Source: Bacillota bacterium
GTDB lineage: Bacteria; Bacillota; DTU025; JANLFS01
Assembly: GCA_024655925.1 (NCBI GenBank)
Contig: JANLFS010000013.1
Location: forward strand, 4,964-38,914
Direction: 5' to 3'
DNA length: 33,951 nucleotides
Of the stretch, positions 10,960 through 33,951 are shown one piece after another (position 1 is the first letter of the stretch; each line of letters opens with the position of its first letter). The notes beneath the pieces are model-generated. The model was not told the DNA's origin. It saw only the letters and a program-made list of their open reading frames with translations, and searched no databases. Both the position numbers and the translations under genes were made by a program.

Positions 10960-10960
10960 G

Positions 10961-14775: not shown

Positions 14776-14776
14776 G

Positions 14777-17372: not shown

Positions 17373-17393
17373 GTGGAACACCTCTCTTGAGCT

Positions 17394-18011: not shown

Positions 18012-18027
18012 TTCCCGTACCTCCCTA

Positions 18028-18990: not shown

Positions 18991-19039
18991 GCACTGCACT
19001 CCCTTTAACCTACTGGGGAGAAGTCCGGCAGATGGTTTG

Positions 19040-19064
19040 CACATTTGTTCAGCACATATGTGCT
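19040..19064. promoter_or_regulatory. Candidate operator for the SorC-type regulator
   Basis: A perfect 14-base palindrome, AGCACATATGTGCT (19051-19064), lies 60-75 bases upstream of the regulator start, directly beside a related half-site TGCACATTTGTTC (19039-19051). On the minus strand this reads as TGTGCT-TGAACA-like halves reminiscent of SorC-family operators. No clear -35/-10 pair could be assigned. Assignment rests on position and symmetry only. Confidence 0.5.
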
Positions 19065-19186
19065 CCAATGGCTACTTCTACGCGGCAATGCTCATTCCTT
19101 CTTTGCGAGAAGAAAAAGCATGACCCCTCATCCATCCGGTTGCTTGAGTTTGGAGGCCGGCGTCCTGTTATGCGGCACGTGGGCAA

Positions 19187-19466: not shown

Positions 19467-20957
19467 CTACATGCGCACTGCATTCGGACGCCGCACCAGC
19501 CTCCTCACAACGCCAATGAGCGGCTCGCCGAACAGCGCGGCGAATATGCACACGATCAGCCCGGCGCAGATCGGGCGAGTGAGGAAGGGGATCAGACTCC
19601 CCCCTGTCTTGATGAGGCCCACTCTCAGGTTGTCCTCCACCATCGGGCCCAGGATGAGTCCGAGCACCATCGGGGTAAGCGGGATTCCCGCGCCCTCCAT
19701 TATGAATCCGAGCAAGCCAGCCCCTAGCATTATGTAGATATCCACAGTGCTGGACCGGAGGGCGTAGGACCCGAGCACTGAAAGAGCGACAACCGTCGCC
19801 ATCACGATCGCCCTGGGGAGCCGCAGAAAGAGCGCGAAGGCCTTGATTCCTGCGTACCCTATCGCCACCAGGATGAACTGAGAAATGACGGCTACGGCGA
19901 ACATACCGTTCAGGAGTTCGTGACTGTCCTGGAAGATCGTCGGACCAGGCCTGAGTCCGTACATGAGCATCGCACCAAGGACTATGGCCGTTATCGTGTC
20001 TCCCGGAACCCCAAAGACCAGAGCCGGGATCCAGGTACCCCCGAGAGCCGCGTTGTTCGCCGCCGTGGGCGCGACCACACCTTCTTCGTACCCGGTTCCA
20101 TACTTCTCTGGGTGTGCGGACGTCCTCTTTCCGACCCCGTACGCCACCCAGGCAGCTACGTCTGCCCCGGTCCCGGGCAGAGCTCCGATGAATGTTCCCA
20201 CAATCGACGACTTGAGCACCGTGGCCTTAAACCGCCACAGTACCCTGAGTGCCTTTGTGAGTGAACACGGCATCTGCTTTGTGACCGCGGGCCTGTTGTC
20301 GCCGAGGGGGTTGTTGAGGAACCGGAAGACCTCAGAGAGACCGAACAGACCTATCATTACAGGGATGAACTCTATCCTGCCGGCGAATTCCGGCACACCG
20401 AATGAGAACCGGGGGTACCCGGTCGTAACATCTGCCCCGACACAGGAGATGAGTAGGCCGGCAAGGACGGAGATGAACCCGCGGAGGGTGTTGCCCCGCG
20501 CGATGATGGCGCTCATAGACAGCCCGAACACACCGAGCCAGAAGTACTCGAAGTTGCTGAAGCGGAGCGCGAATGTAGCAAGCGGTCGTGAGGTGAAAAT
20601 GAGGAGCGCTACCCCTATCAGCCCACCCACGGCAGAGCCGACGAGGTCTATCCCCAGTGCCGCCTCGCCCTCGCCTCTCTTGGCCATCTCGTACCCGTCG
20701 AGCACGGCGGCCCCCGAGGCGGGGGTCCCCGGTATCCTGAGAAACGTGGCGGGTATGTCTCCGGCAAAGATCGCCGTGAACTCTATTCCGAGTATCATCG
20801 CGAGAGCGCCGAGCGGAGTCAAGTAGTAGGTCGCAGGTATTATGAGAGCCACAGCCATGGTAGCCGTCAGGCCCGGCATCCCGCCCACGAATATCCCGAA
20901 CGCCATCCCGATGACCCACGGTACAAGAACCTGGAGCTGGAATATGTCAGCTATCAC
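19467..20957 (-). CDS. tctA: Tripartite tricarboxylate transporter large membrane subunit (TctA family)
   Basis: A 496-residue protein with about 11-12 hydrophobic segments. It carries the family motif halves GGMPGLTATMAVALIIP near the N-terminus and, in the middle, ALPGTGADVAAWVAYG followed by GTGYEEGVVAPTAANNAALGG, the paired glycine-rich sequences of TctA proteins. It is the channel-forming subunit of a secondary, cation-driven importer of organic acids (tricarboxylates, aromatic acids, sugar acids). GTG at 20957 is preceded by GGGAGG at about 9-base spacing, and the gene is 16 bases after tctB. It is the last gene of an operon headed by two PfkB kinases, which suggests the imported acid is later phosphorylated. 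The substrate is set by TctC and cannot be deduced. Confidence 0.95.
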   Translation of the reverse strand: MIADIFQLQVLVPWVIGMAFGIFVGGMPGLTATMAVALIIPATYYLTPLGALAMILGIEFTAIFAGDIPATFLRIPGTPASGAAVLDGYEMAKRGEGEAALGIDLVGSAVGGLIGVALLIFTSRPLATFALRFSNFEYFWLGVFGLSMSAIIARGNTLRGFISVLAGLLISCVGADVTTGYPRFSFGVPEFAGRIEFIPVMIGLFGLSEVFRFLNNPLGDNRPAVTKQMPCSLTKALRVLWRFKATVLKSSIVGTFIGALPGTGADVAAWVAYGVGKRTSAHPEKYGTGYEEGVVAPTAANNAALGGTWIPALVFGVPGDTITAIVLGAMLMYGLRPGPTIFQDSHELLNGMFAVAVISQFILVAIGYAGIKAFALFLRLPRAIVMATVVALSVLGSYALRSSTVDIYIMLGAGLLGFIMEGAGIPLTPMVLGLILGPMVEDNLRVGLIKTGGSLIPFLTRPICAGLIVCIFAALFGEPLIGVVRRLVRRPNAVRM

Positions 20958-20973
20958 CGGATACGCCTCCCGA

Positions 20974-21465
20974 TCACCAGAAACTCAAGACGCCTGTTGG
21001 GAGCGGAACCCTTAACAACCTCGCAAAAATCAGCGCCAGGCCTACGGTCACCAGGATGGAAGCAAGAATACTCTGAGCAGGCCTCACCTTGAACCTAAGC
21101 ATGATAATCGTGGACATGATGGCGGTGGTCAGAAGAAAGCCCAGCCTTTCGTGAAGGACTCCGTAGGCAATGATGCACGCGACCATGATGAGACCACTGA
21201 GGAAACCCTGGTTTCCAAACAGTCCGGCCAGCGTTCTGACTGGGCACTGATCTGACGAGGTCTCCGAACCTCGTGCACGAAAGGCCACGACGAATTCCGC
21301 GGCGCCGCATACTAGTAGCCCGAAAGCGATGAGATTTGGGAAGAAAGCCGGACCCGGAAGCTCAACTCCTCTGACCCGGAAGGCCGGGAAGTCCCGCGTT
21401 AGGAGGAGGACGGTCACCCCGAGTGACACACAACAGAGCCCAATTATCAACGATTGTTTTCTCAT
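20974..21465 (-). CDS. tctB: Tripartite tricarboxylate transporter small membrane subunit (TctB family)
   Basis: A 163-residue protein with four hydrophobic segments (about residues 5-22, 43-62, 90-104 and 110-155 combined), the expected size and topology for TctB. The loop RVRGVELPGPAFFPNLIAFGLL matches the GPxFFPxxxA motif conserved after helix 1 in this family. TctB assists the large subunit; its precise role is poorly known. ATG at 21465 has an AGGGG-type site. It lies between tctC, from which it is separated by an 87-base gap containing a strong hairpin, and tctA, 16 bases on. Confidence 0.88.
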   Translation of the reverse strand: MRKQSLIIGLCCVSLGVTVLLLTRDFPAFRVRGVELPGPAFFPNLIAFGLLVCGAAEFVVAFRARGSETSSDQCPVRTLAGLFGNQGFLSGLIMVACIIAYGVLHERLGFLLTTAIMSTIIMLRFKVRPAQSILASILVTVGLALIFARLLRVPLPTGVLSFW

Positions 21466-21507
21466 AACCTCAACCCCTAACGGCTTCGAATCGAAGAACG
21501 AGGGGAG

Positions 21508-21539
21508 GCTCCTCCCGCGTGGGGAAGGGCGGGAGGAGC
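21508..21539 (-). promoter_or_regulatory. Strong intercistronic hairpin between tctC and tctB
   Basis: GCTCCTCCCGC (21508-21518) pairs with GCGGGAGGAGC (21529-21539): an 11-base-pair perfect GC-rich stem with a 10-base loop, starting 14 bases after the tctC stop. No T tract follows on the transcribed strand, so simple intrinsic termination is unlikely. It probably stabilises the upstream tctC message or partly attenuates tctBA expression. Confidence 0.6.
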
Positions 21540-21552
21540 GCCGGCAGGTGGG

Positions 21553-22533
21553 TTACTGAATATACCCTCCGAGTTTCAGGACAGTATTCCAGGCCTGATC
21601 CTGGGCTGCCATGAAGTCCCCGAACTCTTTGGGGCCTCTGATTCTGGTCCCGAAACCATTCTTGTCCATGAATTCCTTGAACCCGTCTGACGCCACGATC
21701 TTGGACATGGCCTTGTAAAGGACTTCCACCACTTCGTCAGGCGTCCCCGCGGGTACCCCGAACCCTCTCCAGGTCCCGGCAGACCAGTCGATGCCTTGCT
21801 CTTTGAGAGTGGGCACTTCGGGGAACGAAGGAAGGCGGCTATCGGCCATCACGGCGAGGGCCCTCACCGTGCCTGCCTGCACTTGAGCCGCGGCCTCCGC
21901 GAGGCTGCACGTGACGACATCAACGTGTCCCCCGAGAAGTTCGACGAGAGACGGGGCCGCGCCAGTCGTTGGCACCCACGTCACAGCGTCCACAGGAATC
22001 CCTGCGACATTCAGCATCCCGATACGGGCGAGATCCCATATCGTCCCTGCTCCGGAGCCTGAGAAGAGAAGCTTGCCTGGGTTTGCCTTTATGTACGCGA
22101 GGAGCTCCTTGACGTTCTTCCACGGAGCGTCTGCGCGCACAAGCACTGACGATGCGTCCTCGTTGAACTGCATTATGGGTTTGAAGTCCTTGTACGACAC
22201 GTCAGCCAGCCCAAGCCAGTGGACCGTCGCGATCTCCAAGGTTATGTGGGTCACGGTGTACCCGTCTGCCTTGGCCCGCGCCCCGGCCCCGTGCCCAACA
22301 CCCCCGTTGCCGCCGGTCTTGTTCTCCACGACGAAGGGCACTCCCAGCTCCAGTCTGAGTTGGTCAGCCAAGTAGCGCGTCAACCGGTCCGTTCCGCCGC
22401 CGGCGGCCCACGGGCAGATCACCGTGACCGCGCGGGTCGGGTATGTCGCTGCGACACCTGGTTGGACAAAGAGAATCAGACAGGCCAATGACAACAGCGT
22501 GACTCTGCGCATCAAAGAACCAACACGATTCAT
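21553..22533 (-). CDS. tctC: Tripartite tricarboxylate transporter solute-binding protein (TctC/Bug family)
   Basis: A 326-residue extracytoplasmic binding protein. The signal peptide covers about residues 1-27 (basic start, hydrophobic core, cleavage near GVAA). The mature part opens with YPTRAVTVICPWAAGGGTD, the Bug-family carboxylate-binding P-loop, and continues with the GGNGGVGHGAGARAKADGYT segment typical of the second ligand loop. It captures an organic acid and delivers it to TctAB. ATG at 22533 (third codon of the longer frame) is 8 bases from AAGGAG and is preferred over ATG at 22539. It follows the second PfkB kinase gene by about 58 bases. No cysteine lipobox is obvious. Confidence 0.93.
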   Translation of the reverse strand: MNRVGSLMRRVTLLSLACLILFVQPGVAATYPTRAVTVICPWAAGGGTDRLTRYLADQLRLELGVPFVVENKTGGNGGVGHGAGARAKADGYTVTHITLEIATVHWLGLADVSYKDFKPIMQFNEDASSVLVRADAPWKNVKELLAYIKANPGKLLFSGSGAGTIWDLARIGMLNVAGIPVDAVTWVPTTGAAPSLVELLGGHVDVVTCSLAEAAAQVQAGTVRALAVMADSRLPSFPEVPTLKEQGIDWSAGTWRGFGVPAGTPDEVVEVLYKAMSKIVASDGFKEFMDKNGFGTRIRGPKEFGDFMAAQDQAWNTVLKLGGYIQ

Positions 22534-22591
22534 CTTCATCTCTCCTTCCGTTCACAGAACACTCATGTTTGATAGACACGACGACCCAGCG

Positions 22592-23524
22592 TCACTCGGC
22601 TCTCAGCAGATGCTCTACCTCCTCCCTGGTGGGTTGGGACACCAGTGGCCCTCGCCCACGGCATGTCATGGCAGCCGCAGCGTTTGCGAACCTGGCTGTT
22701 ACATCCGGCGAACGCCCTTCCAGAAGACACGCCACGACTGCTGCGTCGAACACATCGCCTGCCCCTACCGTATCCTCCACGTGAACCTGAACACCGGGCG
22801 CACGCGAGGCGCCGTCTCTTGTGACAACCAGACACCCATCCGGCCCCATTTTCACCGCGACCAGCGTTACGCCCCCGTCGATCAAGCGCGCTGCGATCTT
22901 GACTGGTTCGACATCACCGAACAGGAGATGCGCCTCATCAAGTGTGAGTTCTACAACATCCGCGAGGCGGAGAATGGTATGTCGTACCGCCGCGCGGAGT
23001 GTGCTAGATGCCCAGAAACCCGGGCGGATGTTCGGATCGTATGAAACCGTCACGCTGTTGTCCCGGGCAACTTCGATGGCTGCAAAACACGCTTCCATCG
23101 CGCTCGGGCTTATTGCCTGGCTTATCCCTGTGAGATGGAGGACCTTGGCGCGAGTCACGTATTGCGTGTCTATGTCGGACTGGCTCAGGTGACTTGCGGC
23201 AGATCCTTTCCGATGATAGGTGAACTCGTGGCTCTGGTCATGCGAGCAGGAGAAATAGAGTCCGGTGTAGCCCTCGGCATCAACGACCACATGAGACGTA
23301 TCTACCCCGGCCCGACTCCATAAGTCCATGAAGCTCCGCCCCCACGCATCGCTTCCCACACGAGTTATGTACCCGGAGGTGTGTCCGAGTTTGGCAAGGG
23401 CCACCACGAAGTTCGACGTGTCGCCTCCCCATATCCGCTGAAAAGAAGTCTCTTCGGCGATCGGGCGGCCGGAGGTTCCATAGAACCCGGCGAGCGGCTC
23501 ACCCAAAGCTACTACCTCGACCAT
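22592..23524 (-). CDS. PfkB family kinase, 2-keto-3-deoxygluconate kinase-like
   Basis: About 310 residues. The signs pointing to KDG kinases are GGDTSNFVVALAKLG near residue 40, FTYHRKGSAASHLSQSDI around 105-120, VSYDPNIRPGFW, and DTVGAGDVFDAAV with the catalytic Asp. KDG kinases phosphorylate 2-keto-3-deoxy sugar acids before aldol cleavage. Several starts are possible: GTG 23542 (overlapping the preceding stop), ATG 23530 and ATG 23524. The last gives the usual MVEVVALGEP opening, with GAGG 8 bases upstream. It directly follows another kinase of the same type, and precedes tctCBA, so the substrate is probably derived from the acid imported by that transporter. Confidence 0.88.
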   Translation of the reverse strand: MVEVVALGEPLAGFYGTSGRPIAEETSFQRIWGGDTSNFVVALAKLGHTSGYITRVGSDAWGRSFMDLWSRAGVDTSHVVVDAEGYTGLYFSCSHDQSHEFTYHRKGSAASHLSQSDIDTQYVTRAKVLHLTGISQAISPSAMEACFAAIEVARDNSVTVSYDPNIRPGFWASSTLRAAVRHTILRLADVVELTLDEAHLLFGDVEPVKIAARLIDGGVTLVAVKMGPDGCLVVTRDGASRAPGVQVHVEDTVGAGDVFDAAVVACLLEGRSPDVTARFANAAAAMTCRGRGPLVSQPTREEVEHLLRAE

Positions 23525-23538
23525 TGCCATGACCTCAA

Positions 23539-24516
23539 TCACCTCATGAGCGATTCCCTTCCGCCGCGGTGCCTCGCGACGAACACGTGCAGATCATTCC
23601 ATGTGGGCAGGGGTTCGAGATCCCCCCTGGCGGTCACAGCAATCGCCCCCGCGGCGTTCGCGTACATCAGAGCCTCATCGATCGGGCTCCCCTTGAGGAT
23701 GCACGCCAGGAACGCTGCGTCGAAAGCGTCACCTGCCCCGAGTTCGTCCACCACCGGGACGGAAAAGCCAGGGTCCGACGATGGCACCCCGTCTTTCGGA
23801 TATGCGCTGGCTCCATGGCTCCCACATTTGACCACAAGGACGCGCGCCGCAGGGCAGAGCTTCCGCAAGATCTCAACCTGGTGCTCTAGTTCATCGTTAC
23901 CAAAGAGGAAATCAAGATCACCCGTGCCCGTGAAGACAATGTCAGCAAAGGCCAGGAAGGGATCCACAGCCCTGCGCGCCGCTTCTGGGGTCTTGAGAAG
24001 CTGAATTCGGATGTTGGTGTCGAAGCTGAACAGTGCTCCGTTGTTGTGGGCGATCTCTGCCAGGCGGAGCGCGGCTTCCCGGCAGCTCTGACTGAGGGCA
24101 GGGGTGATGCCAGTGACATGAGCAAGCCTGGCGGAGGAGATCCACTCCGGTTCGATGTCGTCCGGGCCCATCCTGCTCGCCGCAGAGCCGGACCTGTAGT
24201 AGTAGACCTTCGATTTCCCCGGAACGGGGTACCCCCTCTGCACCAGATAGACTCCTGTCGGCGCCTCACGGTCCACCGTTACGCGAGAAGTATCCACTCC
24301 GTAAGAGTTGAGTTCCATGAGTACGGCCATGCCCATCTCGTCATCCCCCACCCTGGAGATGAAACTAGCATTGAAACCGAGCCTCGCGAGGCCGGCGAGA
24401 GTATCCGCCTCACTGCCGGCGACGTGTCGCTCGAACATGCGAACCGCACGCAATGGGCCGGGTTCGGCTGCATTCAACTGGACCATCACTTCGCCCAACG
24501 ATACAACGTCCAACAT
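23539..24516 (-). CDS. PfkB family kinase, 2-keto-3-deoxygluconate kinase-like, first gene of TTT operon 1
   Basis: 325 residues. PfkB features: AGSEADTLAGLARLG (signature 1, with GSEAD in place of the common GGDTL), KVYYYRSGSAASRMGPDDI typical of KDG-kinase relatives, FSFDTNIRI, and DELGAGDAFDAAF with catalytic Asp. It resembles the next gene throughout but is clearly divergent, so the pair is an old duplication or two kinases with different specificities. ATG at 24516 has GGGAGGGG about 5 bases upstream. The gene heads the operon; the 172 bases between it and the insertion element carry a small hairpin (24621-24639) but no clear promoter. Confidence 0.9.
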   Translation of the reverse strand: MLDVVSLGEVMVQLNAAEPGPLRAVRMFERHVAGSEADTLAGLARLGFNASFISRVGDDEMGMAVLMELNSYGVDTSRVTVDREAPTGVYLVQRGYPVPGKSKVYYYRSGSAASRMGPDDIEPEWISSARLAHVTGITPALSQSCREAALRLAEIAHNNGALFSFDTNIRIQLLKTPEAARRAVDPFLAFADIVFTGTGDLDFLFGNDELEHQVEILRKLCPAARVLVVKCGSHGASAYPKDGVPSSDPGFSVPVVDELGAGDAFDAAFLACILKGSPIDEALMYANAAGAIAVTARGDLEPLPTWNDLHVFVARHRGGRESLMR

Positions 24517-24639: not shown

Positions 24640-24688
24640 GAAGTATTGTGCACTTAGAGACGAATTCCTGCCTCGTGAAGGCGTTCCT

Positions 24689-24715
24689 ACCGACATTCCG
24701 CACGTAGATTCTGCC
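24689..24715 (+). repeat. Left terminal inverted repeat of the IS1634-type element
   Basis: Begins ACCGACATTCCGCACGTA. It matches the reverse complement of 26068-26094 at 21 of 27 positions, with an uninterrupted ACATTCCGCA core at 24693-24702. Confidence 0.7.
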
Positions 24716-24717
24716 AG

Positions 24718-25995
24718 CTAATGATTCCGCGAAGAGGAGGCTAGTCCATCATCGAGCGCAGGATCTGTGTATATCTCTTCGCTGAAGCCTGCCAGCCGCA
24801 GAAGCCTTGGCACGTCGAAGAGCCGGCCCGTATTGCGCCAGACTCGGCGCACCATCCCTTCGTGTTCGACGTAGGCAACCTGCGCGGTGTCCAACATGTC
24901 GAGTATCATCCGAGCCGTCGGCTTCCTCGTCAGCTTCTGCCCGGGTATCATTAGGGGTTCCTCTTCGGTCTCCAAGTTCTTTCGTACCCGCCTTTCCAGC
25001 AAGGTGGACATGAGCAGAGCCATTAAGAGCACGTACCCCAGAGCCTCAATCCGGCTCTGCTTCTTTAGGAACACCTGCCCTAGCAGGTAAGGACTTTTGA
25101 GAAAGCTGAACCTCGCCTCCACCATCCATTGTTGCTTGTACTCCCCGAGTATGCGCTGAGCTGGATACTTCTTCGTATTCATCACGTTGGTTATCAAGAC
25201 GAAACATCTCTCCCGCTCTCGCGCCCGGTTTACCTGAGCTTCGTCCACTCCGTGTATCTTGACTTTGGTCTTGTACACCGTTGCCCCCGCGGGGACCTCT
25301 TCGTCTTTTCTCGGCCGGCCCCGCCTTGACCGCTTCTCCCTTATGGTTTCCTCCAGGGCCTCGAAGGAAAGCTCGTGGAATCCGTCCTTCCACTTGGCGA
25401 TGAACAATTCCCCTGCCCGCCTTGCGTCAAGTTCACATACGAACTCTCTGTCGAAAAGCTCTTTAGCCGCCCGTTCGATCTCTTCTCCAGACTTGGCGAT
25501 CCGCTTCTCCAGGGACTTCTCCTTCCTCGAGTCCAGGGTGGATGACCGGACCACGATGAACCGGTAGTCTGCCTCGGCTATCCGAGCGACGCTCTCGCTA
25601 ACCCAATACTCAGCCGCACCCTTGCATGAAGAATAGGAGCCAGCGGGTTCCCAGTCGTCCGCCCCGCAAGCCGCTGCGACGGGTTCGCCTACTACCCCGG
25701 AAGCAGCCGGTACGTGGGAGATCAACCTGATGTGTTCATATTCTCCGTAGACGGACAGGCTTGTCATATCGAAGTGCATCGAACCCGCATCGACCTCATG
25801 AACCTTTAGGGCAGAGGTGATCACGTCCCCGAGAACTTTGTTGGCCCGGGCTTCGAACAGCTTATCCAAGGCTCTACCGAGCGCGTCGGCGAGGCCGATC
25901 TCCCTCGACATGGCCGCTACGAGGGAAGTGGCGCCCGCGGTCACCGTCCTTACCGAACCAGGAGCCTCTAAGATAACCTTCATGTCCACCAGCAC
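24718..25995 (-). pseudogene. IS1634-family transposase with internal in-frame deletions
   Basis: 425 codons, open throughout. The C-terminal half is a good IS1634/IS4-type DDE transposase: GRPRKDEE linker, CFVLITNV, the YKQQWMVEARFSFLKSP segment with the catalytic Glu, and RIEALGYVLLMALL. Near residue 75-85, HFDMTSLSVYGEYE supplies the first catalytic Asp. The protein then jumps directly to RLISHVPA, which normally comes after the second Asp, so roughly 100 residues with the second Asp appear missing. A second junction near residue 39 joins an N-terminal REIGLADA to LGRALDKLFEA, skipping another stretch normally present. Both deletions keep the frame. It is probably inactive. The start is GTG 25995 or ATG 25983. 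Confidence 0.75.
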
Positions 25996-26067
25996 GCACC
26001 CCCGGGTCCCATCCTATCCGGAGGAGTCGAACACGCCTTTAACTGGTCTCTTCCAAAATACCTGCTT

Positions 26068-26094
26068 GGGAGATGTTACATGCGGAATGTTGGT
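26068..26094 (-). repeat. Right terminal inverted repeat of the IS1634-type element
   Basis: On the minus strand it begins ACCAACATTCCGCATGTA, the partner of the left repeat at 24689-24715, with the core at 26081-26090. Confidence 0.7.
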
Positions 26095-26188
26095 TCGTAC
26101 GTGGCACTGGAGCAGGGGATCACCCGTGGTGTACAGGTGAAAACGGATGAGGCGCCAGCCGGACCAGTACTTGCTGATGCCTCACCTG

Positions 26189-26575
26189 TCATTGCTCTGC
26201 TGCGGTAAGCGCGTTTTCCACCGCCTTGAGATAGGCCTTAGTGTTTATGGTTGCACCGCTGACGGTATCCACGTCCAGCGATTGAGTCTCGATGATCTTC
26301 CTGACCACCTGCTCCGTGACTTCAGTCTTCGGGATCCGGACTTCCTTCAGGACATCGATATCGGTGACCTTGCCTGACGACACCGTGACCCGAACCGTGT
26401 TCGACCACCGACCGCCTTTGAACTGTCCTGTGTAGGTTCCGTCCCTGAGCCTTGTGAAATCTACAGCGCGAATCTGGAGGCTCTTGATAGAAGACTGCCC
26501 GGCCATCAGAAAGACGCCTGCTCCTACCATCACTACAACGAATCCTCCGAGAATCGCCAGCAATACCTTCCACAT
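26189..26575 (-). CDS. Membrane-anchored FMN-binding domain protein
   Basis: About 128 residues: one N-terminal membrane helix (MWKVLLAILGGFVVVMVGAG) and a single FMN-binding domain. The C-terminal DTVSGATINT segment is the flavinylation motif of the DxxSGAT type, where ApbE attaches FMN to the threonine. Similar domains occur in NqrC, RnfG and extracytoplasmic electron-transfer proteins. The domain is predicted outside the cytoplasm. ATG at 26575 has GGGAG 9 bases upstream; ATG 26581 is too close to it and upstream codons overlap apbE. It lies 19 bases after the apbE stop, so enzyme and likely substrate are cotranscribed. No partner redox enzyme adjoins; the nearest genes are transporters. 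Confidence 0.88.
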   Translation of the reverse strand: MWKVLLAILGGFVVVMVGAGVFLMAGQSSIKSLQIRAVDFTRLRDGTYTGQFKGGRWSNTVRVTVSSGKVTDIDVLKEVRIPKTEVTEQVVRKIIETQSLDVDTVSGATINTKAYLKAVENALTAAEQ

Positions 26576-26594
26576 CCGCATCTTCTCCCTGCAT

Positions 26595-27614
26595 TCATCG
26601 AATGACATTCACACTTCGACCCTCAGCAGCCAGAAAGCAGTTCTTCAGACCTTCAGTGACATGAACCGATAACTCAACATCGACGAGAACGGCCTCGGCT
26701 CTAGGGAACCGCCTGATGAATCCAAGTCCTCTGTTCATCCCGGCCACGAACACGGCCGTCGACAGCGCGTCGGCAATCACGGAACTGTCTGCGACAATGG
26801 TCGCGCTCACCAACCCCGAGTCGGCTGGATATCCGGTAGACGGGTCGAGTATATGATGGCGCCTCCTGCCGTGTCTATCTATGAAGTATCGCTGGTAGTC
26901 GCCGGATGTGACCACCGCCTTGTCGGCCACGGAAACAAGACCGATCAAGCTACCTTCCTGCCTGGGGTGCTGTATGCCGATCCGCCAGTCTGTCCCGTCA
27001 GGTCTTGTCCCGAGGGCCACCACATTGCCTCCTATGTTTGCGAAAGCTGATGTGACGTCGTGGTCCCTGAATACCTGGACGAATCTGTCGCCCGCATAGC
27101 CTTTCCCTATGCCACCGAGGTCGATGGATTGTCCGGCCCTCCGGAGCCCGGCGGCCCTTTCGTTGGGGTCCAGTACCAAATCGGTGTAGCCCACCAGAGA
27201 AAGAACCCGCCTTATCTTTGAGTCCTCCGGAGGGCTTGATGCACCCCTGCCGATGCTCCATAGGTCCACCAGAGGCCCGATGGTAACATCGAATAGCCCC
27301 TGGCAGACACTTGAGAATTCGGCTGCGTGCGACAGCACCTCATATGTGTCAGCGCTCAACCTTTCGCACGAGATACCTGCCGACCTGTTGATCGCGCTTA
27401 TCTCGCTTCCGGGCACAAATCGGCTCATCAGGCTTTCAAGCCGTGTGGCCTCTCGCCTGATCGCGTGCAGAGACTCTTCGGCGTGTTCACCGAAGGCTCT
27501 GTGGGTCATTATTGTGCCCATCCCGAAGCTCTCAGACTCCGCAACGAAGGCCTTGGCCACTGCTAGACCCCTATTCTCCGTCTGCCTGCTCGCGCATTCT
27601 GAACCAGGACTCAT
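26595..27614 (-). CDS. apbE: FAD:protein FMN transferase (ApbE family)
   Basis: 339 residues with the full set of ApbE motifs: GMGTIMTHRAFG near the N-terminus, SLMSRFVPGSEISAINRS, IDLGGIGKGYAGDR, ANIGGNVVALG, VVTSGDYQRYF, HHILDPSTGYPAD (Mg/FAD site) and a C-terminal DSSVIADALSTAVFVAG. It transfers FMN from FAD onto Thr in (D/S)xxSGAT motifs; the next gene encodes exactly such a protein. No signal peptide or lipobox is apparent at the N-terminus, unlike many exported ApbE proteins, so the cellular location is unclear. ATG at 27614 is preferred over the preceding TTG. It lies about 87 bases after tctA of the second TTT operon and may be part of it. Confidence 0.93.
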   Translation of the reverse strand: MSPGSECASRQTENRGLAVAKAFVAESESFGMGTIMTHRAFGEHAEESLHAIRREATRLESLMSRFVPGSEISAINRSAGISCERLSADTYEVLSHAAEFSSVCQGLFDVTIGPLVDLWSIGRGASSPPEDSKIRRVLSLVGYTDLVLDPNERAAGLRRAGQSIDLGGIGKGYAGDRFVQVFRDHDVTSAFANIGGNVVALGTRPDGTDWRIGIQHPRQEGSLIGLVSVADKAVVTSGDYQRYFIDRHGRRRHHILDPSTGYPADSGLVSATIVADSSVIADALSTAVFVAGMNRGLGFIRRFPRAEAVLVDVELSVHVTEGLKNCFLAAEGRSVNVIR

Positions 27615-27700
27615 CAATTTGTATCCTACGACGAGCTTGCGACTTTCCCTTTATTCCAGCTTCGGCGCAGGTCTGTCTCTTTACCGTCCTGCCGGCCCGT

Positions 27701-29218
27701 CTACTCCCCTGAAGACTCGACCGCCCCCTCAGCCCTGCCTCTTCCGCGCAAGTTCGCATAGAGCATGATAACGAGAAACGCGATGAGCACGAGGCCTATG
27801 GGCCGTGTGAACATTGTCCACATGTCTCCGGAGTATGTCAGGATCGCACGTCTGAGCGAGTAGTCGGCGATTGGCCCCACGAGGACTCCCAGGACCATCG
27901 GGGCCAGTGGGTACCCGCGCAGTCGCATCAGGTACCCCACCACACCGAAGATGAACATGACCCACACGTCGAACGTGGTGAACCCGGTGCCCCAGGCTCC
28001 TATCACACCGAGGGTCACCGCGGCCGGGAGTATGATCTCACGCCTGATGGAGAGAAGGCGTATGAAGTAGGGTGACAGCAGCCAGGAGAGCAGGCGGAAC
28101 ACCACGGCCGAAAACCAGAAGAGCACGATCACCCTCGCGATCAACCCCGGTTGCTCGATGATGAGCATGGGGCCCGGCCGTATGCCGTACATGAACAAAG
28201 CCGCGAGCAGAACGGCCGTGGGCCCGCTTCCTGGAATGCCCAGAACCAGCATGGGGATGAGGGCCCCGCCGGAAGTGGCGTTGTTGGCAGCCTCCGGGGC
28301 GATGATCCCCTCGGGGTGCCCTGTGCCGAATTTCTCCTTTTCCCTGGACGAACGCTGGGCGGCATCATAGGCCACCCACGGGGCCACGGACTCACCCACC
28401 CCCGGCACTATCCCCACTCCGATCCCGATGAGGATCGAACGGATCAGTGTCGTGAAGTAGCGTTTGAACAGACTGAGGTCTGCGACCATGCGTCCAGGCT
28501 CGCCCGTCAACTGGTATGGCACTTTCTCGCGAAGGACCCAGAAGACTTCGGCCAGGCCGAAGAGGCCAATCAGGACGGGGACGAACTGAATGCCGCGCAT
28601 GAGCTCGGGTGTGTACCCGTACCGGAACACGCCCCAGACCGGGTCTGTCCCGGCCATGGCCACCAGAAAACCTGCAAACGCTGCTATCCAGCCTTTCAGC
28701 GGGTTCTTGGCACCCAGAGCACCGGCGAGAGTCACTCCTATCAGCGAGACCAGGAAGACCTCCCAGTCCCCCAGTCTCAGCGCGGCCACTGCGATGATGG
28801 GCAACAGCAGGAAGGTCCCAAGCTCCCCTCCGATCTCCCCGAAGAAACTGGACCACGTGGCAATGCCTATGGCCTCCCTTGCCCTGCCCTTCTTCGCGAG
28901 CGGAAACCCGTCCAGCACGGTGGCAGCCGCCGCAGGGGTTCCAGGGATGTTCAGCATGATCGCTGTCACGCTGCCACCATATATCGCCGCACAGTAGATG
29001 CCGACCAGCAAGCCGATCCCAGCGTCCGGAGGCAGGCGGAAGACAAAACCAAGCATGAGGGTCATGGCCATCACAGCGGAAATCCCAGGCAGTATTCCGC
29101 CAATGAGGCCCAGGATTCCACCGGCGACCAGCGCGATGAGTGTGACCGAGTTGGAGAGAACGGCCCCCATCATCTGAGGCAACAGCGCCCACTCCTGGGT
29201 GAGCAAGCTCCAGTTCAT
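27701..29218 (-). CDS. tctA: Tripartite tricarboxylate transporter large membrane subunit (TctA family), second set
   Basis: A 505-residue protein with about 11-12 hydrophobic segments and the TctA paired motifs: GGILPGISAVMAMTLMLGF near the N-terminus, GIVPGVGESVAPWVAYDAA centrally, then GTGHPEGIIAPEAANNATSGG and LVLGIPGS. It belongs to the same family as the 19467-20957 protein but is clearly diverged, so this is not a recent duplicate. The last 20 residues are polar. ATG at 29218 is 16 bases after tctB. Given the upstream LarA, dehydrogenase and aldolase genes, the substrate is probably a hydroxy or sugar acid. Confidence 0.95.
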   Translation of the reverse strand: MNWSLLTQEWALLPQMMGAVLSNSVTLIALVAGGILGLIGGILPGISAVMAMTLMLGFVFRLPPDAGIGLLVGIYCAAIYGGSVTAIMLNIPGTPAAAATVLDGFPLAKKGRAREAIGIATWSSFFGEIGGELGTFLLLPIIAVAALRLGDWEVFLVSLIGVTLAGALGAKNPLKGWIAAFAGFLVAMAGTDPVWGVFRYGYTPELMRGIQFVPVLIGLFGLAEVFWVLREKVPYQLTGEPGRMVADLSLFKRYFTTLIRSILIGIGVGIVPGVGESVAPWVAYDAAQRSSREKEKFGTGHPEGIIAPEAANNATSGGALIPMLVLGIPGSGPTAVLLAALFMYGIRPGPMLIIEQPGLIARVIVLFWFSAVVFRLLSWLLSPYFIRLLSIRREIILPAAVTLGVIGAWGTGFTTFDVWVMFIFGVVGYLMRLRGYPLAPMVLGVLVGPIADYSLRRAILTYSGDMWTMFTRPIGLVLIAFLVIMLYANLRGRGRAEGAVESSGE

Positions 29219-29234
29219 GGCTGTCCCCCCTGCG

Positions 29235-29756
29235 CTACGGAATCGGCATCTCGAATATCTCGGGTATCAGGTACCCAATGAGTGCGGCGCCGAGGACACT
29301 GTAAACCAGGACGTGCCATGCCCTGCCTACGCGAAGATACGCGAAGATCGCGACGAAGAAAAGAAACTGCAGCACTATGAAGTGGATCCATCCCACCAAA
29401 GCCACGTAGACTCCTATGAGTGCAACCAGGGTTAGCCACCTGCGGACGATGTCATTGGAAAGGGTGCTCCTAGCCCATCCCGCGATCGACCTGTATCCAT
29501 GCGTTCGCAGGGTGAGGGCTACCAGTGTTGCGCTGAGGACGAACAGTAGAGACCCGATGAGTGTGGGCGTGAAACCAGCAGCAGTCACGAATCCCAAGGT
29601 GCCACGGCGTGGCATGTTCAGCGCGCCCACAATTGCGAAGACCGAGAGAGCCATGAATGCGAGACCCCCGACGACGTCACCGACGGGCCAGTAGTGGTCC
29701 TGAAGGTCCCGCGTCTTGGGGGGTATTGGTTTCTCCTCCACCGTTTGACCCCTCAC
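29235..29756 (-). CDS. tctB: Tripartite tricarboxylate transporter small membrane subunit (TctB family), second set
   Basis: A 173-residue protein. A polar N-terminus of about 25 residues precedes four hydrophobic segments (about 30-48, 58-82, 105-140 and 148-168), matching TctB size and topology. The loop RRGTLGFVTAAGFTPTLIGSLLF takes the place of the GPxFFP motif seen in the other TctB. Two starts are possible: GTG at 29756, close to AGGA, and GTG at 29741, which has GAGGGG at better spacing. It follows tctC after a 108-base gap with a strong hairpin and precedes tctA by 16 bases, the same arrangement as in the other TTT operon. Confidence 0.82.
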   Translation of the reverse strand: MRGQTVEEKPIPPKTRDLQDHYWPVGDVVGGLAFMALSVFAIVGALNMPRRGTLGFVTAAGFTPTLIGSLLFVLSATLVALTLRTHGYRSIAGWARSTLSNDIVRRWLTLVALIGVYVALVGWIHFIVLQFLFFVAIFAYLRVGRAWHVLVYSVLGAALIGYLIPEIFEMPIP

Positions 29757-29820
29757 TTCCTACTTGAACTGGCGAATCCGGTTGCCGCTCGCAAGTCTGG
29801 GTTGCTAGGAAGAAGGGTGA

Positions 29821-29856
29821 GTGGGGGACGGCCGGTGCCGGCTGGCTGTCCCCCAC
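29821..29856 (-). promoter_or_regulatory. Strong intercistronic hairpin between tctC and tctB, second set
   Basis: GTGGGGGAC (29821-29829) pairs with GTCCCCCAC (29848-29856), a 9-base-pair stem extended inward by three more pairs after one mismatch. It starts 9 bases after the tctC stop. As in the first TTT operon there is no T tract after the stem on the transcribed strand. Confidence 0.55.
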
Positions 29857-29864
29857 CCATTGCC

Positions 29865-30974
29865 CTACTTGGTGAACTCCGCGAGTTCCTGGGCGAAGAG
29901 CTCCTCGACCTTCGCGGGCCAGGGCCTGATCTTCGCTGCAGCCTGGTTGGGCGGCCAGGACCATTCTGTGATCCGCGGGATATTGAACTTCGCCGGGCTG
30001 TCAGACACGATGCCCAGCTCGTACTGGGGCCACGTACGGCCCGAGCCGACCTTCGACACGGCCTGGTCAGACGCCACCCCCATCAGCGGCGCGACAATGA
30101 TCCCGCGGCTCTCGAGACTCTCCTGGAAACGCGGGTGCTTCACCGCATACACGAATGCCTCCGCGATCCGCTCGACGGTCTCCGGCGGTGTGTCTCTTCG
30201 GACCGCAATGCCCCAATACGGGTTGATGGCTGTGTAAACCTCCAGTTGCGGGTAGAACCGGTTGATGGTCGGGAACGTTACGCCCCTCCAATGAAAATCC
30301 TTGGGGTAGAGGTTGGCCAACGGCCTGACCTGGCCGGCCTCTGCCCAGTCAGAGATGTCTCCCAAAGATACTGAGCAGAACTCGACTGCGCCCGACAGGA
30401 GGAAACGTCCCGCTTCGCGTCCGCCATTGTAGGGTACCTCAATGGTCCGGTCGGCAACTCCCGCTGCCTGCACAACGGCCTGCGCGAAGATAGCGCCGTT
30501 CCCGCCGGCGCCGGTGCTACCGTAGCGAACCGGCTTGTCTGCCTTCTTGATCGCAGCGATCAGGTCGTTGAGGTCCCTGTAAGGGGAATCTGCCCGAACG
30601 TATATGGTCGTCCCACCCATGCCCGCCGGGAAGCTGTAGAAATCCTCCCAGCTGACCTGGGCCTGCTTTGTCACCAGCCAAGTTCCCTGAACCATGGCGC
30701 CGCCGAAGAACGTGTAGCCGTCGGGGCGGGACTGTGCTACCCTCTGGCCGGCGATTCCGCCGTTCGCGCCGTCGACGTTCGTGACCTGTATGGGCTTTCC
30801 AAGGAACTCGCTCATTTCGCGGACAACGGCACGGACCGTGGTATCGGAAGTGCCGCCCGCGGACCATCCGAGAATGACGGTAATAGCGCGGTCCGGCCAG
30901 CTTGCGGCGTAACCGGAGGTGTTCAGCAATGCACTTGCCAGCACCAGTGTCAGAAGCACTGCGAGTCGCTTCAT
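29865..30974 (-). CDS. tctC: Tripartite tricarboxylate transporter solute-binding protein (TctC/Bug family), second set
   Basis: 369 residues, about 40 longer than the first TctC. The signal peptide spans about residues 1-24 (KRLAVLLTLVLASALL, cleavage near GYAA). The mature part begins WPDRAITVILGWSAGGTSD, the Bug carboxylate-binding loop, and continues GANGGIAGQRVAQSRPDGYT. The extra length lies in the C-terminal third, rich in Trp and Pro. ATG has a strong AAGGAGG upstream. The gap to the upstream LarA gene is 137 bases without a clear terminator, so it may be cotranscribed with the LarA/dehydrogenase/aldolase genes. The ligand cannot be read from sequence. Confidence 0.93.
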   Translation of the reverse strand: MKRLAVLLTLVLASALLNTSGYAASWPDRAITVILGWSAGGTSDTTVRAVVREMSEFLGKPIQVTNVDGANGGIAGQRVAQSRPDGYTFFGGAMVQGTWLVTKQAQVSWEDFYSFPAGMGGTTIYVRADSPYRDLNDLIAAIKKADKPVRYGSTGAGGNGAIFAQAVVQAAGVADRTIEVPYNGGREAGRFLLSGAVEFCSVSLGDISDWAEAGQVRPLANLYPKDFHWRGVTFPTINRFYPQLEVYTAINPYWGIAVRRDTPPETVERIAEAFVYAVKHPRFQESLESRGIIVAPLMGVASDQAVSKVGSGRTWPQYELGIVSDSPAKFNIPRITEWSWPPNQAAAKIRPWPAKVEELFAQELAEFTK

Positions 30975-31111
30975 GGCTACGATTCCTCCTTAGCAAAGTG
31001 GAAGTTGAGCCAATTCACCACTGCACCGGTCAATCCGAACTCCGCTTTGTGCAACCGCCGGTTCCCTGCCCTCACCCCTTTCTGGATTTCCGCACGGTGA
31101 CGGATCCTGGC

Positions 31112-32389
31112 TCACGATCCCTTGACCACTGGGAGTGTCAGAAGCGCGTCTGGGATGACAATGACCCTGGCGCCAGGGTTTCGCGAAAGCTCGTCATCGA
31201 CCGCTCGTTGTACGGTCTCCGCGGCCTCCAGGTGAATGCGTCTGAGGTCATGAGCGGGTATCAAGCAGTCGGTGATGACCACTCTCGCGTGCTTGAGAAT
31301 CCACGCCAGTATCAGAGCCTTTTGTTCGCCTGGAGCGAACCCGTTGACCTTCGCGGTCTCGATGATCTCATCAGGGCCTCCTGACCCCGCCATCCACTCC
31401 ACGTAACCCGGGTGGCCATACCCATCCTCACAGCTTGCAGGGATGATGAGTGTCCCGCCGGCCCTGACGACGGGTCTTGGTCCGAATACTGAAGTGTTGG
31501 CAGCCCTGGTGGCCTGGTAGAGGTCGCGGTTCTTTGGGTAGCCCACGCCTGCGACGACCACGTCGCCGGCCTGGTCTATCTCCACCTCGTACAGTGCCCT
31601 CGCGGTCTTGACTCCCTCCAGGAATGCCTGAACGGGGTGGCCGGCAACAGCCCTTACCAGCTCTTTCTTGCCGGTCTGAACCACATTCACTATGAAATCC
31701 AGCCCGACTGCGGAGGCGGCCTCCGTGAGGAACTCCCTGAAGGCGTTGCCTTCGATGACCCCGAGCCTCGTCTGGGAGAGCATTTCGAAGTTGTGGGTCG
31801 CCCCGATGGTCGCCTCGCCCGCTACTCCGACGGCGATGCTCTTGACTCCCCCGCTGTACCCGGCAAATAGGTGCGTCTCTATCACGCCGGTGGATATCCG
31901 GACATCGGCCTCGGCGACCTCCTTATTCACCGAGAGGGGAATCCCCCGCCTGGACTTGCCCAGTTCCACCAGGCGGCGTCTGTCCCACGGGTCATGGTTG
32001 ACGAACCTGATTTTCGAGACTGTGTCCTGGCCGAACATGTCGGCAAGCTCCTCAGAGGTGTTCGGCCTGTGGGTCCCAGTTGCGACCACCGCGGTGATAT
32101 CGTCGGCTCTGATCCCGCCTGCGACAAGTTCGTCAATGAGTATAGGGACGATTATGTCCTCCGGAAGCTTACGGGTGATGTCCGTGACCACGATGGCGGC
32201 TTTCTGGCCGGGCCTCACCATCTCTGACAGGCGCACACTTCCTATGGGGTTCCAGACAGCCTCTCGGATCGCGCGTTCCTCGTCGGCGACTGTGGGAAGC
32301 TCGTTACACTCCACGACGGCCACGTCGACCCAATCAGGGATGTCGAATTCCACCAGTCGCCTGCCGTTGGGGACCGCATACCTGGCCAC
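31112..32389 (-). CDS. LarA-family nickel-pincer-dependent hydroxyacid racemase/epimerase
   Basis: 425 residues, full length for LarA. Active-site residues fall at almost the same numbers as in Lactobacillus plantarum LarA: Arg73 (TDITRKLP), His107 (GTHRPN), His173 (ETHLFAGYSGG), Lys183 (GGVKSI, the cofactor-bound lysine) and His199 (ATHNFE). The usual SGGRK is SGGVK here. LarA homologues racemise or epimerise alpha-hydroxy acids, including lactate, malate and sugar acids; the exact substrate cannot be assigned. The enzyme needs the nickel-pincer cofactor made by LarB, LarC and LarE, and none of these is in the window. GTG at 32389 follows AGGGATGG. It sits 50 bases after the hydroxyacid dehydrogenase gene. 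Confidence 0.9.
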   Translation of the reverse strand: MARYAVPNGRRLVEFDIPDWVDVAVVECNELPTVADEERAIREAVWNPIGSVRLSEMVRPGQKAAIVVTDITRKLPEDIIVPILIDELVAGGIRADDITAVVATGTHRPNTSEELADMFGQDTVSKIRFVNHDPWDRRRLVELGKSRRGIPLSVNKEVAEADVRISTGVIETHLFAGYSGGVKSIAVGVAGEATIGATHNFEMLSQTRLGVIEGNAFREFLTEAASAVGLDFIVNVVQTGKKELVRAVAGHPVQAFLEGVKTARALYEVEIDQAGDVVVAGVGYPKNRDLYQATRAANTSVFGPRPVVRAGGTLIIPASCEDGYGHPGYVEWMAGSGGPDEIIETAKVNGFAPGEQKALILAWILKHARVVITDCLIPAHDLRRIHLEAAETVQRAVDDELSRNPGARVIVIPDALLTLPVVKGS

Positions 32390-32439
32390 CGACCATCCCT
32401 ACCTTCCCGAGCGGTCTGCCCCGGCGTCCGGAATTCCCG

Positions 32440-33408
32440 TCACGCCGTCCTAAGCGCCTCCGGGTTGACCACCCACTTCGGCCTCTGGCCGGTCAGGACG
32501 TCCCGCACTCCTTCCGCGGCCCCGGTGGCCATCCTGATCACGCACTCCCGGGTAAGTGCAGCACTGTGCGGCGAAAGCAGCACGTTGTCGAACCCAAAGA
32601 GGGGATTGTCCTTATCCGGCGGCTCCCGCTCAAAGACGTCGAGAGCGGCTGCCGCGATGGGGCCGTTTCTGAGGGCGTCGCAGAGCGCCTTCTCGTCGAC
32701 AACCTCTCCCCGGGAGAAGTTCACCAGGAACGAACCGGGTTTCATCATGGCCAGCCTCGCAGGGTTCACGAGGTGCCTGGTCTCGGGTGTCAGCGGGACG
32801 TGCAATGATACCACGTCCGCGGCCCTGAACACCTTATCGACCTCGTCAAGCAGGGTGATCCTCGCCTGGGAAGCCGTCTCGGGCTTGACATACGGATCGA
32901 ACGCGATAACCCTGAGGTCGAACGCAGTCTGGGCTTTCCTGGCCACGATGGACCCGATCCGGCCAATGCCTATGAGGCCGAGGGTCTTCCCTTCTAGGTC
33001 CACCGCCTTGTACTCGTTCCTCGACTCCCACTTGCCCTCACGGGTGGCCCGGTCCATCGGGAGCATCCGCTTGGCCAGGGCTCCGATGGCCAGGATTGTG
33101 TGCTCCGCCACCGAAACGGCGTTGGCGTTGGGGGTGTTGAGCACCAGGATGCCCATCTCCGTTGCGGCTTTCACATCTATGTTGTCTACTCCAACCCCGT
33201 GCCGGGCGACGACCCGAAGACAGTCAGCGGACTCCATAATCTCTCGGGTGAATGGAGCTGTACGGACGATGGCACCTTCCGCGCCCGCGATCTCTTTCTT
33301 TACAGTCTCGACCGACGGATCAGAGGCCACCCTTACGTCGAATGCGTCCGCAAGGACGGCCACTCCGGACTCGTGGATGGGCTGGACTATCAGTACTCTC
33401 TTCCTCAC
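32440..33408 (-). CDS. D-isomer-specific 2-hydroxyacid dehydrogenase (SerA-like)
   Basis: 322 residues, the short form without an ACT regulatory domain. The NAD-binding fold has GLIGIGRIGSIVARKA, followed by a strand ending AFDPY. The catalytic triad is visible: Arg in NFSRGEVVDE, Glu in DVFEREPP, and His in LSPHSAALTRE. It interconverts a D-2-hydroxy acid and its 2-keto acid. Lack of the regulatory domain and its neighbours (LarA, DapA-like aldolase, TTT transporter) argue for a catabolic hydroxy-acid role rather than serine synthesis. The start is GTG at 33408 with a weak AGGTG site. It lies 57 bases after the aldolase gene. Confidence 0.92.
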   Translation of the reverse strand: MRKRVLIVQPIHESGVAVLADAFDVRVASDPSVETVKKEIAGAEGAIVRTAPFTREIMESADCLRVVARHGVGVDNIDVKAATEMGILVLNTPNANAVSVAEHTILAIGALAKRMLPMDRATREGKWESRNEYKAVDLEGKTLGLIGIGRIGSIVARKAQTAFDLRVIAFDPYVKPETASQARITLLDEVDKVFRAADVVSLHVPLTPETRHLVNPARLAMMKPGSFLVNFSRGEVVDEKALCDALRNGPIAAAALDVFEREPPDKDNPLFGFDNVLLSPHSAALTRECVIRMATGAAEGVRDVLTGQRPKWVVNPEALRTA

Positions 33409-33465
33409 CTACAGCACCTGCCTTGGCTTATGAGATGTGACGCCCGCCCACCGGTGGGGCCCGGT

Positions 33466-33951
33466 CTAGCTCTCCAGAATGCCCATCTCTACGAGGGTGT
33501 TTCTCAGCTTAGCCTTGGCCTCCTGGCTCATCTCTCCCACAGGAAGGATGGCCTCACCCGCCTCGATGCCGATCATATTCAGCGCCTCCTTGATGACCAC
33601 AGGGAAGGTGCCGAGCTCGAACGCTATCCGAAGCGGAGCGAGGCGGTACTGGGCCTCGAGCGCCCTCTTGTGATCACCCGCCACGAAGGCCTCGTAGATC
33701 TCCACGGGGATCCGGGGTTCGACGTTGGCGGTGGCGGTGATGGACCCGGTCCCGCCGTAGCATAGAGTAGCGTAGATCAAGGTATCCCGGCCCGCCAGGA
33801 CTGAGAAATCCATCCCTCTGGTGACCCTTATGTACTCGCCGGTGAGCGTCATGTCGCCACTGGAGTCCTTGACGCCCACGATGTTCTCGACCTGCGCGAG
33901 TTCCTTTACGGTCTCCACTTTGATCGGGACCTTGGTTCTGCCGGGATTGGA
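33466..33951 (-). CDS. DapA/NanA-family aldolase, partial (5' end outside window)
   Basis: The C-terminal 161 residues of a dihydrodipicolinate synthase/N-acetylneuraminate lyase family protein. The frame is open to the window edge, and the first visible residues, SNPGRT, are the end of the Y-x-x-P-G-R-T motif. Schiff-base Lys follows in GVKDSSGD, then a GGTGSITATANVEP loop and a normal helical C-terminus ending near TLVEMGILES. It should be a pyruvate-releasing or pyruvate-adding aldolase or dehydratase. It is the first visible gene of the run leading to the dehydrogenase, LarA and TTT genes. Its C-terminus shows what the 5416-6483 homologue has lost. Confidence 0.9.
   Translation of the reverse strand, partial: SNPGRTKVPIKVETVKELAQVENIVGVKDSSGDMTLTGEYIRVTRGMDFSVLAGRDTLIYATLCYGGTGSITATANVEPRIPVEIYEAFVAGDHKRALEAQYRLAPLRIAFELGTFPVVIKEALNMIGIEAGEAILPVGEMSQEAKAKLRNTLVEMGILES

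Follow-up and report, generated by a model that had tools for sequence, protein, structure and literature searches.

A LarA homologue of an uncharacterised subfamily beside aldolase, dehydrogenase and transporter genes in a Bacillota genome without detectable larB, larC or larE

What does a LarA homologue do in an operon that also encodes a dehydrogenase, an aldolase and a transporter, and where would it obtain its cofactor, the nickel-pincer nucleotide (NPN), in a genome in which larB, larC and larE cannot be detected? The locus that raises this question occupies positions 26189–33951 of a 33,951-nt stretch of DNA (the window) from a Bacillota bacterium, the host (assembly GCA_024655925.1, labelled G000; genomes are labelled G, contigs C and loci L), and the end of the window coincides with the end of contig C13 (38,914 bases). 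Domain profiles found all the genes that the initial annotation had placed on the minus strand here, encoding a DapA-like aldolase, a SerA-like dehydrogenase, LarA and TctCBA. The named genes are thus real, although the list omitted an ApbE gene and an FMN_bind gene, and the DapA-like open reading frame (ORF) is only the C-terminal half of a gene.

Both LarA domains, Lar_N and LarA_C, are recognised in the LarA ORF, placing it in the LarA superfamily by domain content, and the protein keeps D72, R75, H108, H174, K184, H200, Y294 and Q295, with the NPN ligands (R75, K184 and H200) and the catalytic histidines (H108 and H174) intact. The earlier statement that all catalytic residues are present holds at these positions and fails at K298, a residue of the superfamily definition, which is replaced by Arg in a conservative change. 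K298 is listed among the LarA catalytic residues in the consulted text of PMC7583248, where it is also described as absent in some LarAH groups and where membership is not barred on its account. Across a set of 17 members (the window LarA, 14 of the 15 orthologous loci introduced below, and proteins of G032 and G075; L039, a 119-aa fragment, was dropped), position 298 is Arg and position 359 is Lys without exception, position 358 is Gln in 15 and His in two, and position 183 is Val in 16 and Ala in one. The window LarA itself has Q358 and K359, and H/Q at 358 with K at 359 is the malate-racemase signature given in the consulted part of PMC11770544; where lactate racemase has F-F-W at positions 175/176/358, the window LarA has L-F-Q. 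A malate-racemase-like pocket of this kind, (Q/H)358-K359 together with Arg298, makes a hydroxy-dicarboxylate the likely substrate.

In a maximum-likelihood tree of 76 rows, the 12 subfamily members included (ten, plus the G032 and G075 proteins as sisters) form one clade (support 100/99) that excludes both Mar2 and the 2yjg lactate racemase. The best NCBIfam match of the window LarA is LarAH6 (NF052593), at 395 bits against a cut-off of 500, and the protein lies below every NCBIfam LarA cut-off that it matched. Judged by its sequence, the window LarA belongs to a separate, uncharacterised subfamily of the LarA superfamily. The initial annotation had read SGGVK, in place of SGGRK near the cofactor lysine, as support for a non-lactate enzyme; we rejected this motif as a mark of specificity, because position 183 varies widely in other LarAs (R, H, G, P, A, S, T, C and others) and because a host LarA of lactate-racemase type (L042, 508.7 bits against a cut-off of 460) has Gly there. 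Q358/K359 would be the better specificity evidence. A very distant LarA paralogue without D72 (26 bits; L050 and L057) lies near the window-type LarA in G032 and G075, adjoining a hydroxyacid-dehydrogenase-like gene (48%).

The grouping of LarA with its neighbours recurs elsewhere. One scan of genome contigs yielded 15 loci with LarA orthologues at 55–73% identity, in Moorella mulderi, Bacillota, Deltaproteobacteria, Thermodesulfobacteriota, metagenome-assembled genomes (MAGs) of Syntrophaceae, and uncultured bacteria. A DapA-like gene (64–82% identity) adjoins LarA in 13 of the 15 (counting L032, where only the last 73 residues match; the sequence of L037 stops at LarA). An HpaI-like gene is found in 12, with the Moorella query locus counted, at 62–63% identity in L033 and L035 and at 38–41% in nine others, and a SerA-like dehydrogenase in 11. 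The grouping of LarA, DapA-like aldolase and dehydrogenase exceeds chance, and because the module recurs in such distant bacteria we regard the three as belonging together, in agreement with the initial annotation. As separate observations, a PfkB-like gene occurs in L026, L030, L031 and L038, and in all of these but L026 it precedes LarA at a short distance; in L030 a nucleoside-hydrolase-family gene and then a PfkB gene passing the ribokinase cut-off stand directly upstream of LarA-DapA-HpaI, and L038 has a similar layout by eye and BLAST, with a nucleoside-hydrolase look-alike recognised by eye.

On balance, we favour a reading in which the operon would import a small hydroxy-dicarboxylic acid, invert its C2 hydroxyl and degrade it, by way of an NPN-dependent LarA. 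TctCBA would take up the acid; LarA, with NPN bound to Lys184 and His200 (in standard LarA numbering), would transfer a hydride to interconvert the two C2 isomers, passing through a transient 2-oxo intermediate; the SerA-like dehydrogenase would oxidise the D isomer, giving the 2-oxo acid; and the DapA-like and HpaI-like aldolases would split this into pyruvate and a small aldehyde. Because retro-aldol cleavage to pyruvate requires a 4-hydroxy-2-oxo acid, we would expect a 2,4-dihydroxy-3-deoxy acid to be imported, with Lys359 favouring a diacid. A 2,4-dihydroxy-3-deoxy diacid would fit all steps, as in the conversion of 2,4-dihydroxyglutarate to 4-hydroxy-2-oxoglutarate and on to pyruvate and glyoxylate. 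The direct basis is the gene content, the conserved linkage, the intact NPN ligands and catalytic histidines, and the malate-racemase-like pocket with Arg298; from these we infer the substrate, the direction, the aldol step and the NPN loading of the host LarA. The earlier proposal of uptake, epimerisation, oxidation and aldol cleavage is sound in outline and has more behind it than was visible to the initial annotation.

Known pathways share parts of this arrangement. With the glucarate/galactarate or tetronate pathways (GarL, GarR, Hyi/OtnI), the Moorella cluster has in common a GarL-like HpaI aldolase (below cut-offs), a GarR equivalog (515 bits against a cut-off of 397) and a Hyi-like protein over both cut-offs (hydroxypyruvate isomerase, 365 against 353; 2-oxo-tetronate isomerase, 334 against 325), whereas the orthologous cluster adds LarA and a DapA-like aldolase. 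Within the DHDPS/NAL family (DapA, KDG aldolases), the Moorella neighbour scores above the dapA cut-off (225 against 206; the window copy is half-length only), but here the gene is conserved beside LarA in an apparently catabolic operon.

In the host, the minus-strand ORFs of the locus are separated by 16 to 137 nt, with a single 14-nt overlap, a close spacing that is operon-like, and all three components of a tripartite tricarboxylate transporter (TTT) are present together (Table 1). The closest solved relative of the dehydrogenase is McyI (260 bits), an enzyme that acts on malate-type acids. The FMN_bind protein is likely flavinylated by ApbE, its SGAT fitting the ApbE target motif [S/T]GA[S/T] given in the consulted text of PMC10979944. 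The DapA-like ORF, which is 82% identical to a neighbour gene in Moorella mulderi, is truncated because contig C13 stops there. When the host genome was searched with the Moorella HpaI-like protein, the best match (79%) lay on contig C115, and two weaker matches, at 30% and 34%, lay elsewhere. At the end of C115, a GntR/FCD regulator and the HpaI-like gene are followed in the same orientation by the first part of a DapA-like gene, which runs off the contig; this last piece (L103) aligns to residues 1–136 of the Moorella DapA-like protein at 79% identity. Because Moorella keeps HpaI, DapA, dehydrogenase and LarA in the same order, the host operon very likely spans the break, probably beginning on C115 with the GntR regulator and the HpaI-like aldolase and continuing on C13.

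Table 1. Coordinates of the operon genes, of other features of the window and of features at related loci; positions refer to the window unless a locus is named.
Feature	Position	Strand	Evidence
DapA/DHDPS-family class I aldolase, C-terminal 161 aa	33466–33951	-	PF00701, 105 bits; cut off by contig end
SerA-like D-2-hydroxyacid dehydrogenase	32440–33408	-	PF02826/PF00389; 71% identity to Moorella orthologue
LarA homologue (Lar_N + LarA_C)	31112–32389	-	PF09861 (Lar_N), 218 bits; LarA_C, 46 bits; closest solved structure Mar2 (6d6z), 227 bits
TctC, periplasmic receptor of TTT	29865–30974	-	PF03401, 94 bits
TctB	29235–29756	-	PF07331, 38 bits
TctA	27701–29218	-	PF01970, 425 bits
ApbE, FAD:protein FMN transferase	26595–27617	-	PF02424, 290 bits
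FMN_bind protein	26189–26608	-	PF04205, 38 bits; N-terminal hydrophobic segment by eye; SGAT motif
IS1634-family element	24682–26101		Imperfect 35-nt inverted repeats at 24682–24716 and 26067–26101, 74% complementary
IS1634-family transposase	24718–25995		141 bits (cut-off 100)
Second TTT-like set (TctC, TctB, TctA)	19467–24516		By eye and BLAST likeness
ECF transporter region	9538–19068		ECF set at 14777–18011
355-aa ORF	5416–6483	+	DHDPS/KDG aldolase match over about the first 230 residues, none at the C-terminus
Broken lactate-racemase-type LarA	L045 (C48), 598–1649		Two overlapping ORFs
Distant LarA paralogue	L050, 9241–10488		No D72
Distant LarA paralogue	L057, 3658–4917		No D72
Nucleoside-hydrolase-family and PfkB genes	L030, 8014–9950		PfkB passes ribokinase cut-off
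Layout like L030	L038, 7318–9255		By eye and BLAST

We consider the apparent absence of the cofactor genes a more interesting result than the grouping of the pathway genes. The host assembly (3.2 Mb in 232 contigs, 97.6% complete) contains six LarA loci, five of them with all six of the NPN and catalytic residues scored (D72, R75, H108, H174, K184 and H200; L041 and L044 extend to the end of their contigs). The other is the broken copy on C48, for which no N-terminal part was found. Two host LarAs pass curated cut-offs, L041 as a LarAH6 malate racemase and L042 as a lactate racemase; L041, on contig C5, adjoins a tartrate-dehydrogenase equivalog, and a malic-enzyme-like gene and TctA- and TctC-like ORFs (by eye) lie on the same contig. 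Nevertheless, larC was not detected in the host with TIGR00299, or with PF01969 at E 0.001 or at E up to 10; larB was not found over its cut-off, the single weak match (E 1.2e-5) presumably being what PurE would give; and larE was represented by weak partial matches only (best 25.7 against 150 bits; none at E 1e-15). Unlike the lactate racemase operon of larABCE type, with which it shares the LarA NPN ligands and catalytic histidines, the operon itself holds no larB, larC or larE. The initial annotation had called for a search of the genome for these genes, on which its pathway was made to depend, and all three are undetectable in this assembly. We do not take this to refute LarA function, because 12 of the 14 other genomes with an orthologue of the window LarA carry larC (the misses, G102 and G107, are of unknown completeness; L036, from the same MAG as L032, was left out) and because the gap recurs widely.

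This recurrence emerges from a non-random sample of 101 genomes, made up of the host itself and 100 relatives, of which 11 belong to its order and the others to its phylum, with LarB and LarE counted above cut-offs and LarC at E 0.001. Some Lar_N match was present in 76 genomes, and 62 were kept as having a strong LarA (best E at most about 1e-28, our own cut): 37 carry larB, larC and larE, 18 carry none and seven have partial sets. Among the 48 of these genomes that are at least 95% complete, the corresponding counts are 34, nine and five, and the nine with none are G000, G001, G006, G012, G032, G059, G073, G074 and G097. G032, assembled as a single contig and 100% complete, contains seven intact LarAs, and one of these shares 59% identity with the 2yjg lactate racemase; in its order, larC was found in none of eight genomes and a strong LarA in five of the eight, larB and larE having been searched in G032 and G075 only. 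Stretches fetched from the 18 genomes without the three genes, covering part of their LarA matches, contained 57 LarA ORFs, and 49 keep all six residues; of the other eight, four are cut by a contig end, two make up the broken host copy and two are distant paralogues without D72. By comparison, G002, of the same order as the host, has larB, larC and larE close together on contig C61, and six pairs of its LarAs with those of larBCE-less genomes are 61–85% identical. A missed, divergent LarC was considered and rejected, PF01969 at E up to 10 giving no match in the nine genomes and 458 bits in G002. The converse mismatch between NPN synthesis and LarA is also known, larBCE without larA occurring in about 15% of genomes according to the consulted text of PMC11796402; in our sample, 16 of the 39 genomes without a strong LarA carry all three genes, a mismatch in the opposite direction to the one described here. 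Among the strong-LarA genomes, G027, G041 (only LarC) and G053 (only LarE) are at least 97% complete. We also observed a tandem pair of two LarA subfamilies (L046, L065, L068, L075 and L087), common to the larBCE-bearing G002 and the larBCE-less G001, G005, G007 and G059; its neighbours include genes resembling altronate dehydratase (L046) and HMGL (L087), with likely homologues in the other loci.

A plainer account of the operon would be that the window LarA is another malate racemase and that the operon serves the use of D/L-malate. The window LarA shares with the malate racemases of LarAH5/LarAH6 (Mar1, Mar2) the fold by homology, the NPN ligands, both catalytic histidines and the (H/Q)-K motif, and LarAH6 and Mar2 are its top NCBIfam family and top solved structure. 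We nevertheless consider this account unlikely, since the score lies under the LarAH6 cut-off, the tree separates the protein from the Mar2 clade, Arg298 is invariant in the subfamily, and two aldolases are linked to it that oxaloacetate would not require. The host, moreover, already has a LarAH6 equivalog in L041 (508 bits), by a tartrate-dehydrogenase equivalog (540 against 470 bits) of a family with activity on D-malate, and with the malic-enzyme-like gene on the same contig. Several points do weigh against the hydroxy-dicarboxylate pathway that we favour: K298R alters a residue named as catalytic, (Q/H)K at 358/359 fits plain malate too, and the deepest forks of the tree are weak, leaving the deeper placement of the subfamily weakly supported. 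The module is also uneven, with neither aldolase matched within 10 kb in L026, the HpaI-like gene not matched in L031, and a TctA match in only four of the 15 loci. Only in L025, L033 and L035 does the dehydrogenase gene share the strand of LarA and lie next to it or almost so, at 57–71% identity; in the other eight loci identity falls to 36–42%, and the gene is on the opposite strand at distances of up to 8 kb. Finally, the presence of two aldolases of different families suggests that one catalyses another reaction, one of the six host LarA loci is broken, and the host LarA may be an apo-protein.

If the enzyme works in the host, where, as in many other LarA-bearing genomes, no larB, larC or larE is detectable, it must draw its NPN from an unrecognised source, either uptake or a second pathway. 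The cofactor site seems to be kept under selection in lineages unable to make NPN by the known route, and we tentatively propose that larBCE-less lineages have a real alternative supply of NPN, from a second biosynthetic pathway or by import, as with shared cobamides. It is also conceivable, if rather doubtful, that the host and its relatives carry the three genes on plasmids, islands or repeats missed in assembly or binning, most of all in draft genomes, so that the operon would be an ordinary NPN pathway. The host genome is, after all, a fragmented draft, G002 of the same order has the complete set, partial sets occur in seven of the 62 strong-LarA genomes, and even a one-contig genome might still miss a plasmid. 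Yet nine of the 48 strong-LarA genomes of at least 95% completeness lack all three genes, for which random loss of one locus at 3–5% gives a binomial probability of 1e-5 to 6e-4 (a guide only, as related genomes are not independent), and neither the one-contig G032, with the distribution of larC and LarA in its order, nor the empty PF01969 searches in the nine genomes fit easily with chance omission. A further explanation, which we regard as improbable, is that the orphan LarAs are NPN-independent or are decaying apo-proteins; this would agree with the undetected cofactor genes, the split host copy on C48 and two long-branch copies with odd pockets (L044 in G000 and L083 in G012). It sits poorly with the conservation of all six residues in most of the ORFs from the 18 genomes, with the 61–85% identities between LarAs of G002 and those of larBCE-less genomes, and with the position of several orphan LarAs next to transport and substrate-specific enzyme genes.

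In a search for a maturation gene hidden beside the orphan LarAs, clustering of the ORFs that surround LarA in the 18 genomes without lar maturation genes plus G003, in the fetched stretches only (often 3 kb per side), revealed no non-LarA ORF family in more than eight of the 19 genomes; the largest cluster is TctA-like, the few others identified are transport proteins and metabolic enzymes, and some look like shadow ORFs. An alternative LarE was sought in a paper on the QueC family (PMC13329287), the consulted text of which describes LarE alone. LarA without larBCE is not mentioned in the consulted texts of PMC7583248, PMC11770544, PMC11796402, PMC12611868 and PMC13329287, and earlier work may treat it.

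Elsewhere in the window, the IS1634-family transposase gene lies just downstream of the FMN_bind gene, and downstream of this insertion sequence is the second TTT-like set, preceded by tandem KDG-kinase-like PfkB genes (301 and 202 bits, cut-off 400). Further along, an energy-coupling factor (ECF) transporter, with S component, fused double ATPase and T component, stands behind a DeoR/LsrR-like regulator (below cut-offs), with genes for a ribokinase-like PfkB protein, an ADP-ribosylglycohydrolase, a DeoC/LacD aldolase, a Zn-dehydrogenase and an FGGY kinase as neighbours. The part from the S component to DeoC is conserved in G006, beside a LarA there, the S component being 80% identical. As a LarA-linked cofactor importer, however, the ECF set is unsupported, its S and T components matching only one other LarA locus, that of G006, in a comparison with fetched LarA loci of 3–21 kb at E up to 1e-6. 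The plus-strand ORF whose N-terminal part alone resembles DHDPS/KDG aldolases is a possible frameshift or fusion.

In the literature searched, as far as it was covered, one biosynthetic route to NPN is known. If the present reading is true, genomes with up to seven intact NPN enzymes and no larBCE would imply a second route to NPN or a trade of the cofactor between cells. Independently of this, the invariant Arg298 and the aldolase partners of the LarA subfamily described here point to a pathway for 2-hydroxy diacids, one that is unassigned in that literature.

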